A DNA stretch of 37,748 nucleotides, taken from assembly GCA_028293645.1 (NCBI GenBank), contig JAQGOK010000019.1:1-37748 (forward strand), read 5' to 3'. Position 1 is the stretch's first letter, and every line of letters starts with the position of its first letter. The notes under the pieces are model-generated. The model was given only the letters and a program-made list of their open reading frames with translations, was not told the DNA's origin and did not search any database. The stretch comes from Chthoniobacter sp. (lineage in GTDB: Bacteria > Verrucomicrobiota > Verrucomicrobiia > Chthoniobacterales > Chthoniobacteraceae). Of the stretch, positions 3,203-32,824 are shown one piece after another. The position numbers and the translations under genes were made by a program.

Positions 3203-4300
3203 CTACGCCGCAGCGCGCAGGCGAATGCGTTCGATCGCCCAAGTTGCATGCTCCGCAATCAGCGGCTCGGGATCGATTGCCGCGCGTTCCAGCGCCGGCA
3301 GGTCTTCCGGCGTGCCGACGTTTCCCAACGCGACACAAACGTTCCGGAGCAAGCCGCGACGCTTGATTCGTTTGATCGGTGATTTGCGAAAAAGCGTCCG
3401 GAATTCTTCGTCCGTCAGCGCGAGATAATCGCGCAGCGTCATCCCGTGGACGAACGGACGTGCGGCGAACGATGCCTGGTGCGAAGCCTCCGCGAAGCGA
3501 TTCCACGGGCACGCGGTCAGGCAATCGTCGCAGCCGTAAATGCGGTCGCCGAGCAGCGGCCGGAACTCCAGCGGGATGCTCCCTTTCAGCTCAATGGTGA
3601 GATACGAAATGCATCGCCGCGCATCGAGTTGTCGCGGCGCCGTGATCGCGCCGGTCGGACAAGCAACCATGCAGCGCGTACAGCTTCCGCAATGATCGCG
3701 CATCGGCGCGTCCGCTTCGAAGCCGAGCGTGGTCAGAATCTCGGCGAGGAAGAACCACGTGCCGAGCTTCGGGTGGACGAGCATCGTGCTCTTGCCGTGC
3801 CAGCCGGCGCCCGCGACGGCGGCGAAGTCGCGCTCCAGCATCGGCCCGGTATCGACGTAACAACGTTGCCGTCCGCCGCGCGCCTGCAGCCATTCGTCGA
3901 GAGCCTTCAGCTTGTGCTCGATCACCTCGTGATAGTCGTCGCCCCACGCGTATCGGGCGATGCGGCCCGAGGATTTCAGATCGCGGATTTCAGATTTCAG
4001 ATTGGGGTCCGATTCCGCCGGGGTGCCGCTGGTCGATCTGCGATCTGAAATCTGCGATCTGAGATTCCCCTCCCCTGGCCAATAATTCATTCCGAGCACA
4101 ATGACTGACTCCGCACCGGGGAGGACCTGCTGCGGGTCGGTGCGACGATCTTGATTCCGTTCGAGCCAGGTCATCTCGCCGGCCCGACCATCGGCCAGCC
4201 AGGAGCGGAATGCGTCCGCGTGCGGCGGGGTCGCGCAGGCGGCCACGCGGCAAAGGTCGAAGCCGATCGACTCAGCGAGCGCGATGAGCTCCGTTTTCAC
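3203..4300 (-). CDS. queG: Epoxyqueuosine reductase QueG, with an in-frame palindromic insert
   Basis: QueG reduces epoxyqueuosine to queuosine in tRNAs with a GUN anticodon, using cobalamin and two 4Fe-4S clusters. The 365-residue protein shows both ferredoxin-like clusters (CGSCTRCMVACP and CDDCLTACP), the conserved RYAWGDDYH segment, and a C-terminal HEAT-like stretch (LRNVCVALGN onward). The start is a GTG at 4300, overlapping the shikimate kinase stop as GTGA, so translation is probably coupled; an upstream ATG at 4393 lies inside that gene. Residues about 79-111, between the MNYWPGEG and GRIARYAWG blocks, are encoded by a near-palindromic DNA element (3972-4066). They contain two similar octads, LRSQISDR and LKSEIRDL. 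In family members I know, these two blocks are separated by only a few residues, so the element looks like an insertion that kept the frame. The catalytic blocks are intact, so the enzyme is probably active. Confidence 0.95.
   Translation of the reverse strand: MKTELIALAESIGFDLCRVAACATPPHADAFRSWLADGRAGEMTWLERNQDRRTDPQQVLPGAESVIVLGMNYWPGEGNLRSQISDRRSTSGTPAESDPNLKSEIRDLKSSGRIARYAWGDDYHEVIEHKLKALDEWLQARGGRQRCYVDTGPMLERDFAAVAGAGWHGKSTMLVHPKLGTWFFLAEILTTLGFEADAPMRDHCGSCTRCMVACPTGAITAPRQLDARRCISYLTIELKGSIPLEFRPLLGDRIYGCDDCLTACPWNRFAEASHQASFAARPFVHGMTLRDYLALTDEEFRTLFRKSPIKRIKRRGLLRNVCVALGNVGTPEDLPALERAAIDPEPLIAEHATWAIERIRLRAAA
3972..4066. repeat. Imperfect palindromic element inside queG
   Basis: Two 31-base arms (3972-4002 and 4036-4066) are inverted copies matching at 26 of 31 positions, with a 33-base spacer. 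Each arm is itself built from short units of the type gatttcag / gatcgcag. The element lies wholly within the queG reading frame and contributes about 32 codons without a stop. It resembles intergenic repeat elements rather than coding sequence. Confidence 0.85.
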
Positions 4301-4839
4301 CGCGCAGATTCGCACGAGAAGAAGCGCCGCGCCTCCGCGATCAACGCCTCCGCTGCCTCCCGGTGCGAAAGGTCGCTCGTATCCAGCATCCATTGCGCCG
4401 CCGCTTCATAGAGTGGAGCGCGCGCCGCGAGCATCTCAGAGATCGTCGCGCGCGGATTTGCGGTTTGAAGAAGCGGACGTTTCGAGTTCCGCGAAACGCG
4501 CTCGAAGATCACGTCCTCCGTTGCCGTGAGCAGAACGACAAACCCGAGCCGGCGCAGCAAAGCGTGATTCCGCTCACGCACCACGATGCCGCCGCCCGTC
4601 GCGATCACGCAGTGTGCTTCACCCGCGAGCGACTCCAGCGCAGCGGTCTCGAGATCGCGAAAGTGCGCCTCGCCGTGCGTCGCGAAGATATCCACGATTT
4701 CCTGGCCAGCACGTCGCACGACCAGCGCGTCCGTGTCCACAAATCGGTAGCCCAGCCGCCCCGCGATCAGGCGGCCGATCGACGATTTCCCGCTGCCCAT
4801 GAAACCGATGAGCACAAAGTTGGGGAGCGGAGGATTCAC
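4297..4839 (-). CDS. aroK: Shikimate kinase
   Basis: This enzyme phosphorylates shikimate at the 3-hydroxyl, the fifth step of the chorismate pathway. Using the GTG at 4839 the protein has 180 residues, the usual family length. It has the P-loop GFMGSGKSS at about residues 12-20, the substrate-binding DTD motif (FVDTDALV), the FRDLE segment, the GGG loop (IATGGGIV) and the lid arginine region (RNSKRPLL). Upstream in-frame starts exist (ATG at 4920, another at 4974) but would add a Cys/Arg-rich leader with no family counterpart. The gene diverges from purE across about 146 bases and overlaps queG by four bases. The chorismate synthase gene aroC lies about 28 kb away in the same window. Confidence 0.92.
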   Translation of the reverse strand: MNPPLPNFVLIGFMGSGKSSIGRLIAGRLGYRFVDTDALVVRRAGQEIVDIFATHGEAHFRDLETAALESLAGEAHCVIATGGGIVVRERNHALLRRLGFVVLLTATEDVIFERVSRNSKRPLLQTANPRATISEMLAARAPLYEAAAQWMLDTSDLSHREAAEALIAEARRFFSCESAR

Positions 4840-4985
4840 GGCGGGCGTGGATTTGAGAACGGCCAAACGGCCCGCGCATTCCGCCAGCGCAAGCCATTGC
4901 CGACAATCCGATTCGTGCATCCTTGCCCGCCGCAGGCCGGAATCGGTTTGCGTTCCCCTTCCCCGCCCCACCAAATACGCGCCTC

Positions 4986-20414: not shown

Positions 20415-23400
20415 ATGAAGACCGATCTGCTCGATCAGATCGCCGCCACCGCGGCGATGACCGCCAAGCTGGAGCAGGTCCGGGCAGGCGAAGCGGTTTC
20501 GTTCGAGCACGTTTTCCCGTCGGCTCAGCCGTGGCTCGTCGGCGTCCTGGCGCGCCAGGTGAAGCAGCGGATCTGGGTGGTCTGCAGCGATGTGCGCGCG
20601 CAGGAGACGTTTCACAACGAGCTGCTGCAATGGTTTCCCGAGGCGCTGTTTTTCCCGGAGGTCGAACGCGCGCCAGTTGAGGGCGCGTTGCCCGACGCCG
20701 AAGCCACCGCCGAACGGCTCGGGATCGTCCAGAAGCTGACCAGTGGTGCGAAACGGCAAATCGTGGTGCTGACCAAAGCGTGCCTCGAGGATGACGTGCC
20801 GTCGCCTGCGGCGTTGCGGCAGCTCGAAGTGAAGCTGCGCCGTTCCGCGAAGCTCGATCGCGAAGGCTTGATCAAGCAGCTCGCGGCGGCCGGTTACGAG
20901 CACGTGGCCCAAGTCTCGGCCCGTGGGCACTTCGCGGTCCGCGGCGGCATTCTGGATGTGTTCTCTTTTCACCATGCGCTGCCGGTGCGCATCGAGCTAT
21001 TCGATGACGAGATCGAGTCCATCCGCGAGTTCGATCTGGATACGCAGACGAGCGTTCAACGGCTGGACGCCTGCACTTTGCTGCTCGGCGAAGCCGCCGC
21101 GGAGCGCGCGACGGTGAAGCTGCGGGAGTTGATTGCCGCTCGTGATCTGACCGTCGATGCCGACGCCGGCTGGCTGGCGGCGCAGGTGCAGATTCTGGAG
21201 AGCGCGACTGGCGTGGTCGCCGTGGAGGAAGGTGACGGCGAAGAAGTGAAAGCAGCGAAGAGCAAAAGGAAGGACGGGAGATCCGCTGCTTCCTCCGACT
21301 TCGCTGCTTCCGCTGCTTCGCAGTCGATCACCGCAGGCGCGGAAGATTATTCCACCGCGTTCTTTGATCACGGTCTCGGCGAGTTCGAGGCGGGCGATTT
21401 CGTAGTCGATGAGCTGAAGCGCGAGCGGTTCTTCGCGCAGCTTCGCGAATGGCGCACCAGCGGTTGGCGCGTCCACATTTTCTGCAACAACGAAGGTGAG
21501 ATCGAACGCCTCCATGATCTGCTGCCGCCGGTCGAATCCGACGTGATCACCTTTGCGATCGGCACGCTCGCGCGCGGCTTCACCTATCCGGCCGGGAAGC
21601 TTGCCGCGCTCAGCGATGCGGAGCTTTTCGGTCGTTACCGCAACACGCGCGCGCGCCGGCTCGCGTTGCGCCGGGCGCGGGAGCAATCCAGTCGCGTCCA
21701 GATCGATTTCAGTGAGCTGAATGAGGACGATCTCGTCGTTCATCTGGAGCACGGCATCGGCCGCTACGAAGGCATGCGCTCCATCCCGAGCGCCGACGGC
21801 AAAGCCGAGGAAGTGCTGGTGATCGCCTTCGCCGAGGACTCCCGGCTTTACGTTCCGCTCGAGCAGTCGTTCCTCATCGCGCGCTACGTCGGCGTCGGGA
21901 AACGCAACCCGCCACTCTCGGTGCTCGGTGACGGCAAGTGGGCCAAGGCGAAGAAGAACGCGGAGAAAGCAGTCTTCGATTACGCCGGCAAACTCCTGCA
22001 GCTCCACGCCGAGCGCGAGACGGCGAAGGGCTTCGCCTTTCCGCCGGACAACAAGTGGCAGCGCGAATTCGAGTCGTCGTTCCTCTTCAAAGAAACACCC
22101 GATCAGCTCACCGCGATCGCCGCCGCGAAAGAGGACATGGAATCCGAGCGACCGATGGATCGGTTGATCTGTGGCGACGTCGGTTTCGGCAAAACCGAGG
22201 TCGCGATCCGCGCTGCATTCAAGGCGGTCATGGGCGGCAAACAGGTCGCCATCCTTGTGCCAACCACGGTTCTTGCCGAGCAGCACTACCGGAACTTCCG
22301 CGAGCGGATGAGTGATTACCCGATCACGGTCGAATTGCTCAGCCGCTTCCGCACCCATGCCGAGCAGCGCAAGACGGTCGAGGGTTTGAAGGACGGTCGC
22401 GTGGACATCGTGGTCGGCACGCACCGGCTCATTTCCAAGGACATCGTCTTCAAGAATCTCGGCCTCGTCGTGATTGATGAAGAGCAGCGTTTTGGTGTGC
22501 TCCACAAAGAGAAGTTCAAGGAGATGTTCCAGCTCGTGGACATGCTCACGCTGAGCGCCACACCCATCCCGCGCACCCTCTATCTGTCTCTCATGGGCGC
22601 GAAAGACATGAGCACGATCGAGACGGCGCCGCTCAACCGCATCCCGACCGAAACGCTGATCTGCCCCTACGATGAGCGGGTGATCCGCGACGCGATCAAC
22701 CGCGAACTACACCGGCAGGGGCAGGTTTACTTCCTCCACAACCGGGTCGAATCGATTCAAAAAATGCGCGACAAGATCGCGCTGCTTTGCCCGAAGGCAA
22801 AGCTCGTGATCGGTCACGGGCAGATGGACGAGCACGAGCTCGAAGAGGTGATGCAGAAATTCGTGAGCGGCGCCGCCGACGTGCTCATCTCGACGACGAT
22901 CATCGAGAGCGGCCTCGATATTCCCAACGCGAACACGATCATCATCGATCGCGCGGATCGGTTTGGGCTGGCCGATCTTTACCAACTCCGCGGCCGCGTC
23001 GGCCGCGCGCAACACAAGGCTTACGCGTACCTCATGCTGCCGCGCGAGATGCTCACGCTGGGCGAAGCGCGCCGCCGGATTAACGCGATCAAACAGTACA
23101 GCTCGCTCGGCGCCGGCTTCAAAATCGCCATGCGCGACCTCGAGATCCGTGGCGCCGGAAACATCCTCGGGACGCAGCAGAGCGGTCACATCGTCAACAT
23201 TGGCTTCGACCTCTATTGCGCGTTGCTCAAGCAGGCCATTTCCAAGATGAAAGGGGAGAAAGTGCGCCCGCGGCTGGAGGTGGTTCTGCGCACTGACTTC
23301 GTAGCGACGCGCGAAGCGGAGTTCCTCAAAAACGGCGCTCAACAACTGCCAGCCTTCCTTCCCGCGGGTTACATCAGCGAAGCGCAGCCGCGCATTCAGG

Positions 23401-23693
23401 CGTATCGGCGACTCGCGGAAGTGAACACGCAAGAGCAGCTCGAAGCATTGCGCAAAACCTGGCGTGACCGCTTCGGAGCGCTGCCGGAAGCCGCCGAGAA
23501 CCTCCTGCTTCTCACCGAAATCAAACTCGCCGCCGCCGCCCGCAAGATGTCGATGGTCGAGGTCCGCGAGGACAAAGCGATGCTCACCCGCAACGGCGCG
23601 CTCATCCAGATCGGCGGCAAGTTCCCGCGCCTCGTCTCGAACAATCGCGTCGAGCGCCTGCACGAATTGCTCAAGCTGGTGCGCGCCTTCTAA
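20415..23693 (+). CDS. mfd: Transcription-repair coupling factor Mfd, with an in-frame repeat insert
   Basis: Mfd releases RNA polymerase stalled at DNA damage and recruits UvrA for nucleotide excision repair. The 1092-residue protein has an N-terminal UvrB-like module (FFPEVERAP, RGGILDVFSF). The RNA polymerase-interacting domain follows (DLVVHLEHGIGRYEGM), then the RecG-like ATPase with CGDVGFGKTEVA (Walker A), DEEQRFGV (Walker B), TLSATPIPRTLY, STTIIESGLDIPNANT and LRGRVGR. A C-terminal TRCF domain completes it. A perfect AGGAGG precedes the ATG. Residues about 278-303 (VKAAKSKRKDGRSAASSD and onward) are low-complexity and encoded by a palindromic DNA stretch, in the linker before the DYSTAFFDHG block. 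This looks like an insertion that kept the frame. All motor motifs are intact. Confidence 0.97.
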   Translation: MKTDLLDQIAATAAMTAKLEQVRAGEAVSFEHVFPSAQPWLVGVLARQVKQRIWVVCSDVRAQETFHNELLQWFPEALFFPEVERAPVEGALPDAEATAERLGIVQKLTSGAKRQIVVLTKACLEDDVPSPAALRQLEVKLRRSAKLDREGLIKQLAAAGYEHVAQVSARGHFAVRGGILDVFSFHHALPVRIELFDDEIESIREFDLDTQTSVQRLDACTLLLGEAAAERATVKLRELIAARDLTVDADAGWLAAQVQILESATGVVAVEEGDGEEVKAAKSKRKDGRSAASSDFAASAASQSITAGAEDYSTAFFDHGLGEFEAGDFVVDELKRERFFAQLREWRTSGWRVHIFCNNEGEIERLHDLLPPVESDVITFAIGTLARGFTYPAGKLAALSDAELFGRYRNTRARRLALRRAREQSSRVQIDFSELNEDDLVVHLEHGIGRYEGMRSIPSADGKAEEVLVIAFAEDSRLYVPLEQSFLIARYVGVGKRNPPLSVLGDGKWAKAKKNAEKAVFDYAGKLLQLHAERETAKGFAFPPDNKWQREFESSFLFKETPDQLTAIAAAKEDMESERPMDRLICGDVGFGKTEVAIRAAFKAVMGGKQVAILVPTTVLAEQHYRNFRERMSDYPITVELLSRFRTHAEQRKTVEGLKDGRVDIVVGTHRLISKDIVFKNLGLVVIDEEQRFGVLHKEKFKEMFQLVDMLTLSATPIPRTLYLSLMGAKDMSTIETAPLNRIPTETLICPYDERVIRDAINRELHRQGQVYFLHNRVESIQKMRDKIALLCPKAKLVIGHGQMDEHELEEVMQKFVSGAADVLISTTIIESGLDIPNANTIIIDRADRFGLADLYQLRGRVGRAQHKAYAYLMLPREMLTLGEARRRINAIKQYSSLGAGFKIAMRDLEIRGAGNILGTQQSGHIVNIGFDLYCALLKQAISKMKGEKVRPRLEVVLRTDFVATREAEFLKNGAQQLPAFLPAGYISEAQPRIQAYRRLAEVNTQEQLEALRKTWRDRFGALPEAAENLLLLTEIKLAAAARKMSMVEVREDKAMLTRNGALIQIGGKFPRLVSNNRVERLHELLKLVRAF
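21248..21320. repeat. Palindromic element inside mfd
   Basis: Inverted arms 21248-21260 and 21299-21311 match at 12 of 13 bases. An inner pair, 21267-21272 and 21289-21294, matches perfectly. The nonamer CGCTGCTTC occurs three times in the right half (21284, 21302, 21311). The element lies in frame in the UvrB-like part of mfd and codes for a Lys/Ser/Ala-rich stretch. Its sequence is unrelated to the element in queG. Confidence 0.75.
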
Positions 23694-32719: not shown

Positions 32720-32824
32720 TTTACCGCGGAGGGCGCCAGGACGCCGGGGGGCCGCAGAGGCAAGGCAGGATGCTCCTATTCTTTCTCCCGCGCGCCTCTG
32801 CGCCTTTGCGCCCTCTGGGGTAAA
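32720..32824. repeat. 105-bp imperfect intergenic palindrome
   Basis: The element has a single dyad centre at 32772. Around it tttacc (32720-32725) pairs with ggtaaa (32819-32824), gagggcgc (32729-32736) pairs with gcgccctc (32808-32815), and the central agga (32767-32770) pairs with tcct (32774-32777). All pairs are in exact register. Intervening bases match moderately. It occupies most of the 206-base gap between aroC and ileS, both on the minus strand, so it lies in the ileS leader region. No T tract adjoins it. Confidence 0.8.

Follow-up and report, generated by a model that had tools for sequence, protein, structure and literature searches.

How does a palindromic stretch of DNA come to be read inside a conserved enzyme? 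The question was raised by queG, the gene for tRNA epoxyqueuosine reductase, on a 37,748-nt stretch of a Chthoniobacter sp. genome (the window). A preliminary description had noted that a palindrome lies in frame in this gene and had compared it to the palindromic elements of Rickettsia. The element most probably belongs to a dispersed, mostly intergenic Chthoniobacterales repeat, a heptad-armed palindrome that now occupies a permissive surface loop encoded by queG, where it would be translated and tolerated.

The queG palindrome and its reading frame

The queG gene occupies positions 3203 to 4393 on the minus strand. Its identity was established by the profile match of this open reading frame (ORF) to TIGR00276 (382 bits, cut-off 200), by alignment with relatives and by the QueG fold of the predicted protein. 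Counted from the ATG at 4393, the ORF encodes 396 aa. This start is doubted because a GTG at 4298-4300 overlaps the stop of an aroK-like ORF (4297-4974) in the tetranucleotide GTGA (window 4297-4300), and from the sequence the GTG is probably the real start; the QueG proteins of 12 relatives align with a start at the same VK. The host genome is a single metagenome-assembled genome in 225 contigs, 79.6% complete. Its de novo repeat survey sampled 689 kb (about one fifth), and the remainder was covered by pattern and BLAST searches only.

The palindrome consists of two 30-nt arms and a spacer, none of which is assigned a strand. The first arm (3973-4002) is a run of tandem heptads, GATTTCA-GATCGCG-GATTTCA-GATTTCA. 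It is followed by a 33-nt spacer (4003-4035) that is in frame in queG. The second arm (4036-4065) carries the heptads inverted, as the inverse of GATCTCA-GATCGCA-GATTTCA-GATCGCA, with one variant heptad that reads CCGCGAT for CTGAAAT on the coding strand. Each arm can thus be described as about four degenerate 7-nt repeats (GATTTCA / GATCGCR), and the element has the build of a heptad-armed palindrome, defined as inverted arms of about four 7-nt units around a spacer of 20-80 nt. The arms are complementary at 26 of 30 positions (87%), or 26 of 31 when the outer pair 3972/4066 is counted. That the arms are tandem heptads, and that they are A+T-rich, had escaped the preliminary description; the GC content is 40% in the arms, 76% in the spacer and 65% in the remaining queG.

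That the arms, given there as 31 bases long, exceed chance was borne out. The top inverted repeat in queG scored 20 (+1/-1.5), and the maximum was 12 both in 40 Markov-3 shuffles and in 40 codon shuffles. When the same peptide was recoded synonymously with the codon usage of the window (n = 2000), the scores averaged 12 and reached at most 31, compared to 35 for the observed sequence. As the recodings stayed below the observed value, it is the DNA rather than the peptide that accounts for the pairing. The coding-strand RNA was predicted to fold with -48.1 kcal/mol (z -4.4), and none of 200 shuffles reached as low an energy. No target-site duplication was seen at the edges of the element, no GTAG, the foot of GTAG REP/REPIN elements, was found beside either arm (3960-4075), and a search of Rfam gave no match for the palindrome.

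Read in frame, the extra coding segment (3971-4066, minus strand) contributes some 30 of the 38 residues in the loop that separates NYW from RIARYAWG. Its translation is NLRSQISDRRSTSGTPAESDPNLKSEIRDLK, with no stop, in agreement with the open reading through two similar octads (LRSQISDR and LKSEIRDL) that had been pointed out before; the predicted peptides include SEIR and STSGTPAESDPNLK. Two of the six frames are open across the segment and queG reads one of these. Whenever the GATTTCA heptad is paired with its inverse, one of the two arms is oriented as CTGAAAT, and three such units suffice to bring a TGA into every frame. The unit that would put it in frame on the coding strand, the third of those possible, is CCGCGAT in place of CTGAAAT, and the queG frame therefore stays open. 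The same variant heptad is present in a related, non-coding copy on contig C20 (see below), and its origin therefore does not have to be tied to keeping the frame open.

The enzyme around the segment appears undamaged, as had been claimed: the conserved QueG blocks are intact on either side in the alignment with the 12 relatives. The protein was modeled with AlphaFold2 on an alignment of 57 sequences (mean pLDDT 83.9), and 337 of 365 residues of the model superposed on a solved QueG (5d0a, Z 35.5). The pLDDT was 47-61 in the insert blocks, above 90 in the flanking core strands and mostly above 85-90 in the core. The modeled insert is a low-confidence loop on the QueG fold, which fits an added flexible surface segment.

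Repeats in the QueG loop of relatives

The preliminary description had proposed an alignment with relatives as a check, and this showed that the segment is not common to them, being absent or different in the orthologues. When queG was searched against 57 related genomes with tblastn, the match broke at the segment in most. The loop comprised 6-17 residues in 65 of 93 QueG relatives from the order and beyond, as opposed to 38 here, and it had 14 residues in Chthoniobacter flavus Ellin428 (G004). The nearest relative's QueG was 79% identical, and the genomes compared offered no exactly empty site from a very close relative.

Long loops were frequently repetitive. A heptad array or palindrome (p ≤ 0.005) was found in 13 of the 28 loops of at least 18 aa, compared to 5 of the 65 shorter ones. 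Within the smallest clade, comprising the present genome, G004, G010, G001 and G002, four of five loops held four different repeats: the GATTTCA heptad palindrome described above, an AGCAGGG heptad palindrome in G010 (L044), a GGAGCGC heptad array in G001, and, in G002, a long REP dimer of the GTAG type whose arms match almost perfectly; the start of this dimer was also found in G003 (both congeners). The REP in G002 reads GGTAGGGACGGC...GCCATCCCTACC, and REP-like palindromes were likewise found in the loops of L058, L092 and L094. Other loops contained ATTCAAA heptads (G035), CGCACTC heptads (G027) or AAGGCAG heptads (L060), and those of soil relatives contained CTACAG, GGCATCGG and CATTCC palindromes. 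In several loops a simple heptad array stood alone, with no second arm. When repeats were mapped on a maximum-likelihood tree of 92 QueG sequences, their presence required at least 11 changes, with gains and losses not told apart, and their type 14.

The earlier reading of the segment as an insertion therefore stands, although a single insertion is too narrow a description, as different repeats have filled the loop many times. Repetitive DNA seems to supply new peptide repeatedly to a single site of a conserved enzyme, where it is tolerated. That different repeats, palindromes as well as heptad arrays, have refilled the loop in this family is probably due to its tolerance of length change rather than to targeting by a single element.

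Related elements and the origin of the palindrome

A search of the genome for the arm, suggested in the preliminary description, retrieved a related copy at C20:5505-5597 (82% identity over 45 nt, E 5e-6) and dozens more matches in sister genomes. The C20 match spans one arm and the first ~15 bases of the spacer, and the two queG arms resemble each other (87%) more closely than they do this copy (82%). By the conditions set in the preliminary description, then, neither this search nor the comparison of loops refuted an insertion. A first-pass scan with a strict heptad pattern matched the queG locus alone. Copy number in the genome was low, with this one further, partial copy and one heptad-armed palindrome in the 689 kb sampled, and the many copies of one consensus that characterize GTAG REP/REPINs were not found.

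The heptads are widespread in the lineage. GATTTCA arrays were present in 11 of 40 family genomes and a reversed control pattern in none of the 40. In 1.24 Mb of Chthoniobacterales DNA, 32 arrays had a period of 7 nt, compared to six at period 8, seven at period 14 and 0-1 at periods 4, 5, 10, 11 and 13; Markov simulations gave none. Heptad-armed palindromes of like build with other units were found at unlinked sites in G001, G010, C. flavus and other Chthoniobacterales, most of them in stop-to-start intergenic space. The unit varies between elements but both arms of one element use the same unit. GATTTCA, GATCGCR and GATTGCR heptads recurred at unrelated sites in several genera. The intergenic site of divergent glycosyltransferase genes holds the other GATTTCA element of the present genome, and the orthologous site (L347-L351) holds an ATTTAGG heptad palindrome in G001, units of about nine bases in G002 and another palindrome in G014. 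A heptad palindrome elsewhere in G001 (L231:12254-12408) has perfect 37-nt arms (37/37) and is possibly recent. In the window itself, the ileS/aroC intergenic region contains a palindrome at 32720-32824 (GGAGGGCGC...CGCAGAGGC / GCGCCTCTGCGCC...) that looks like another dispersed repeat. One clear gene for an IS200/REP-type transposase (Y1_Tnp) and two weak ones were detected in the genome; as a candidate mover Y1_Tnp was set aside, as nothing connects it with the heptad elements.

The proposed origin starts from what was observed, namely the palindrome, its heptads, the open frame, the absence from relatives and the recurrence of repeats in the QueG loop. A dispersed palindrome with tandem-heptad arms would have entered queG at a surface loop that is permissive. 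Its length, a multiple of three, its phase and one variant heptad would together avoid the TGA of CTGAAAT, so that it could be read as about 30 extra residues, presumably translated into protein, neutral and tolerated, and insertions that broke the frame would have been removed by selection.

The strongest competitor, itself rather unlikely, is growth in place: slippage would have built the heptads from the DNA of the loop, and template switching at the hairpin would have copied one arm onto the other. This is suggested by arms that share their unit while the units differ between sites. It is also consistent with the several QueG loops in which a simple heptad array has no second arm, with the lack of a target duplication seen at the queG element, and with the predominance, among the long simple repeats of many genomes, of heptads, for which slippage has been proposed (as cited in PMC4679880). 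Arms closer to each other than to the C20 copy would be expected from such growth as well. Against it, the heptad lexicon is shared between unrelated sites in several genera, the C20 copy includes part of the queG spacer, and the REP dimers found in this loop represent a type regarded as mobile. A dispersed element that was copied in is therefore favored over local growth with arm-to-arm correction, on the strength of the shared lexicon and of the C20 match to both arm and spacer.

It is improbable that the palindrome is a functional site, kept by selection because it binds a nucleoid or regulatory protein or because its mRNA hairpin regulates an aroK-queG operon. Its architecture is that of the paired heptad sites of Geobacter metallireducens, which are putative global-regulator sites (PMC2700814), the predicted hairpin is stable (z -4.4), and the glycosyltransferase intergenic site holds palindromes of different sequence in four genomes. 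However, the sequence at the queG site is not conserved, most relatives have nothing there, and Rfam held no match. An assembly artefact or a decaying pseudogene might be suspected in a fragmented, incomplete genome, yet it is very improbable given the open frame, the intact conserved columns and the recurrence of repeats in the same QueG loop of other assemblies. Chance self-complementarity of codons in a repetitive peptide, which the two octads invite and which a few recodings approach with scores of 31, was refuted at the level tested and is hardly credible, as all 2000 recodings and all shuffles fell short and the same heptads exist as non-coding DNA.

Among known systems, the closest in architecture are the paired tandem-repeat sites of G. 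metallireducens, in which octamer, 9-mer and heptamer units (classes 1-3) pair on opposite strands; the class 3 heptads are MTYCTGA, and a single-array heptad family, GGACCGG, also occurs within genes (PMC2700814). These sites were interpreted as binding sites of regulators (IHF/HU) (PMC2700814). They share with the present elements the inverted pairs of short tandem arrays around a spacer, but each family there has one unit whereas here the unit changes between elements, and the queG element sits in the reading frame of a housekeeping enzyme. The heptamer repeats of Xanthomonas and Nostoc (GGGNATC; PMC4692102) and of Beggiatoaceae (TAACTGA; PMC4679880) are likewise dispersed, mostly intergenic 7-nt tandem arrays, often of four units. 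Those are single direct arrays of one unit and under-represented in coding DNA; inverted heptamer pairs are rare, with one in a Beggiatoaceae genome (PMC4679880).

With regard to in-frame elements, the preliminary description knew of no such case in this lineage, but intragenic GTAG/CGTC REPs had been reported from Opitutus terrae, also of the Verrucomicrobia, where they lie in frame in conserved genes and their dimers encode 20-30 residues (PMC3733652). The queG element resembles these as an in-frame palindrome in a conserved gene of the same phylum, but it lacks a GTAG end and is built with heptad arrays as arms. Rickettsia palindromic elements (RPE), as quoted in PMC3733652, are palindromes that are still translated in essential-looking genes, where they add a surface segment. 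The suggested analogy holds for the mode, a palindrome in a conserved gene with the frame and the conserved residues kept. Nothing points to kinship: by description, RPE families have many copies of conserved sequence, and the unit, the tandem-heptad arms and the host differ here. The queG element is a heptad-armed palindrome and probably not a Rickettsia RPE. For heptad palindromes in Verrucomicrobia or Planctomycetes, the literature searched yielded no paper, although such an absence is no proof.

In-frame repeats in other genes

The ORF at 20415-23693 (plus strand), which from the reading of its sequence we take to be mfd, the gene for the transcription-repair coupling factor, and which was also compared with relatives, contains a second in-frame palindrome (21234-21325, no strand assigned). 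It has 27-nt arms (23/27) built of units of about nine bases, GAAGCAGCG, and a 38-nt spacer; no further copy was found in the genome except its own inverted match. The Mfd loop has 53 residues here and 16 in C. flavus, a clean 36-residue excess whose flanking matches are adjacent in C. flavus. The Mfd of G009, G033, G060 and G027 also held palindromic inserts, whose sequences differ from this one.

In a loop of CysS, GATTTCA heptads are in frame in G001 and G002 (DFRFQISD), and other heptads occupy the same loop in G010 (KSEVRNQKSEI); the in-frame loci are L254, L255 and L278. No clear array was found in this loop in 26 relatives. The CysS inserts of G009, G027 and G033, considered as further cases, are long yet neither heptad nor clearly palindromic. 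Two further ORFs of G001 hold AAGGATG heptad palindromes (KDEGGRMKDE...LIPHPSSF).

In-frame palindromes were known before, usually as isolated examples that each belong to one element family; in the present case, the loop of QueG took in several unrelated repeat types within one bacterial family. It can therefore be traced on a tree, over many independent events, how a translated insert is born, changes and is lost. This offers a tractable system for how repetitive DNA lengthens proteins and for the question of whether hairpins with repeat arms move or arise by themselves. As a tentative generalization, which we hold to be possible but doubtful, palindromes with tandem arms of 7-, 8- or 9-nt units may replace one another at tolerant sites of Chthoniobacterales, both intergenic and in the loops of QueG, Mfd and CysS, so that the hairpin structure would persist while its sequence turns over and peptide would be fed steadily into conserved proteins.

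Additional cases were sought with a tally of intragenic and intergenic palindromes, which relied on a crude gene caller, included weak palindromes and served only to find cases. In the present genome, long imperfect palindromes were located at L164:5990-6173 and L176:6802-7833, in ORFs of 1173 and 980 aa, respectively, the second of which holds two; these are probably further translated repeats.
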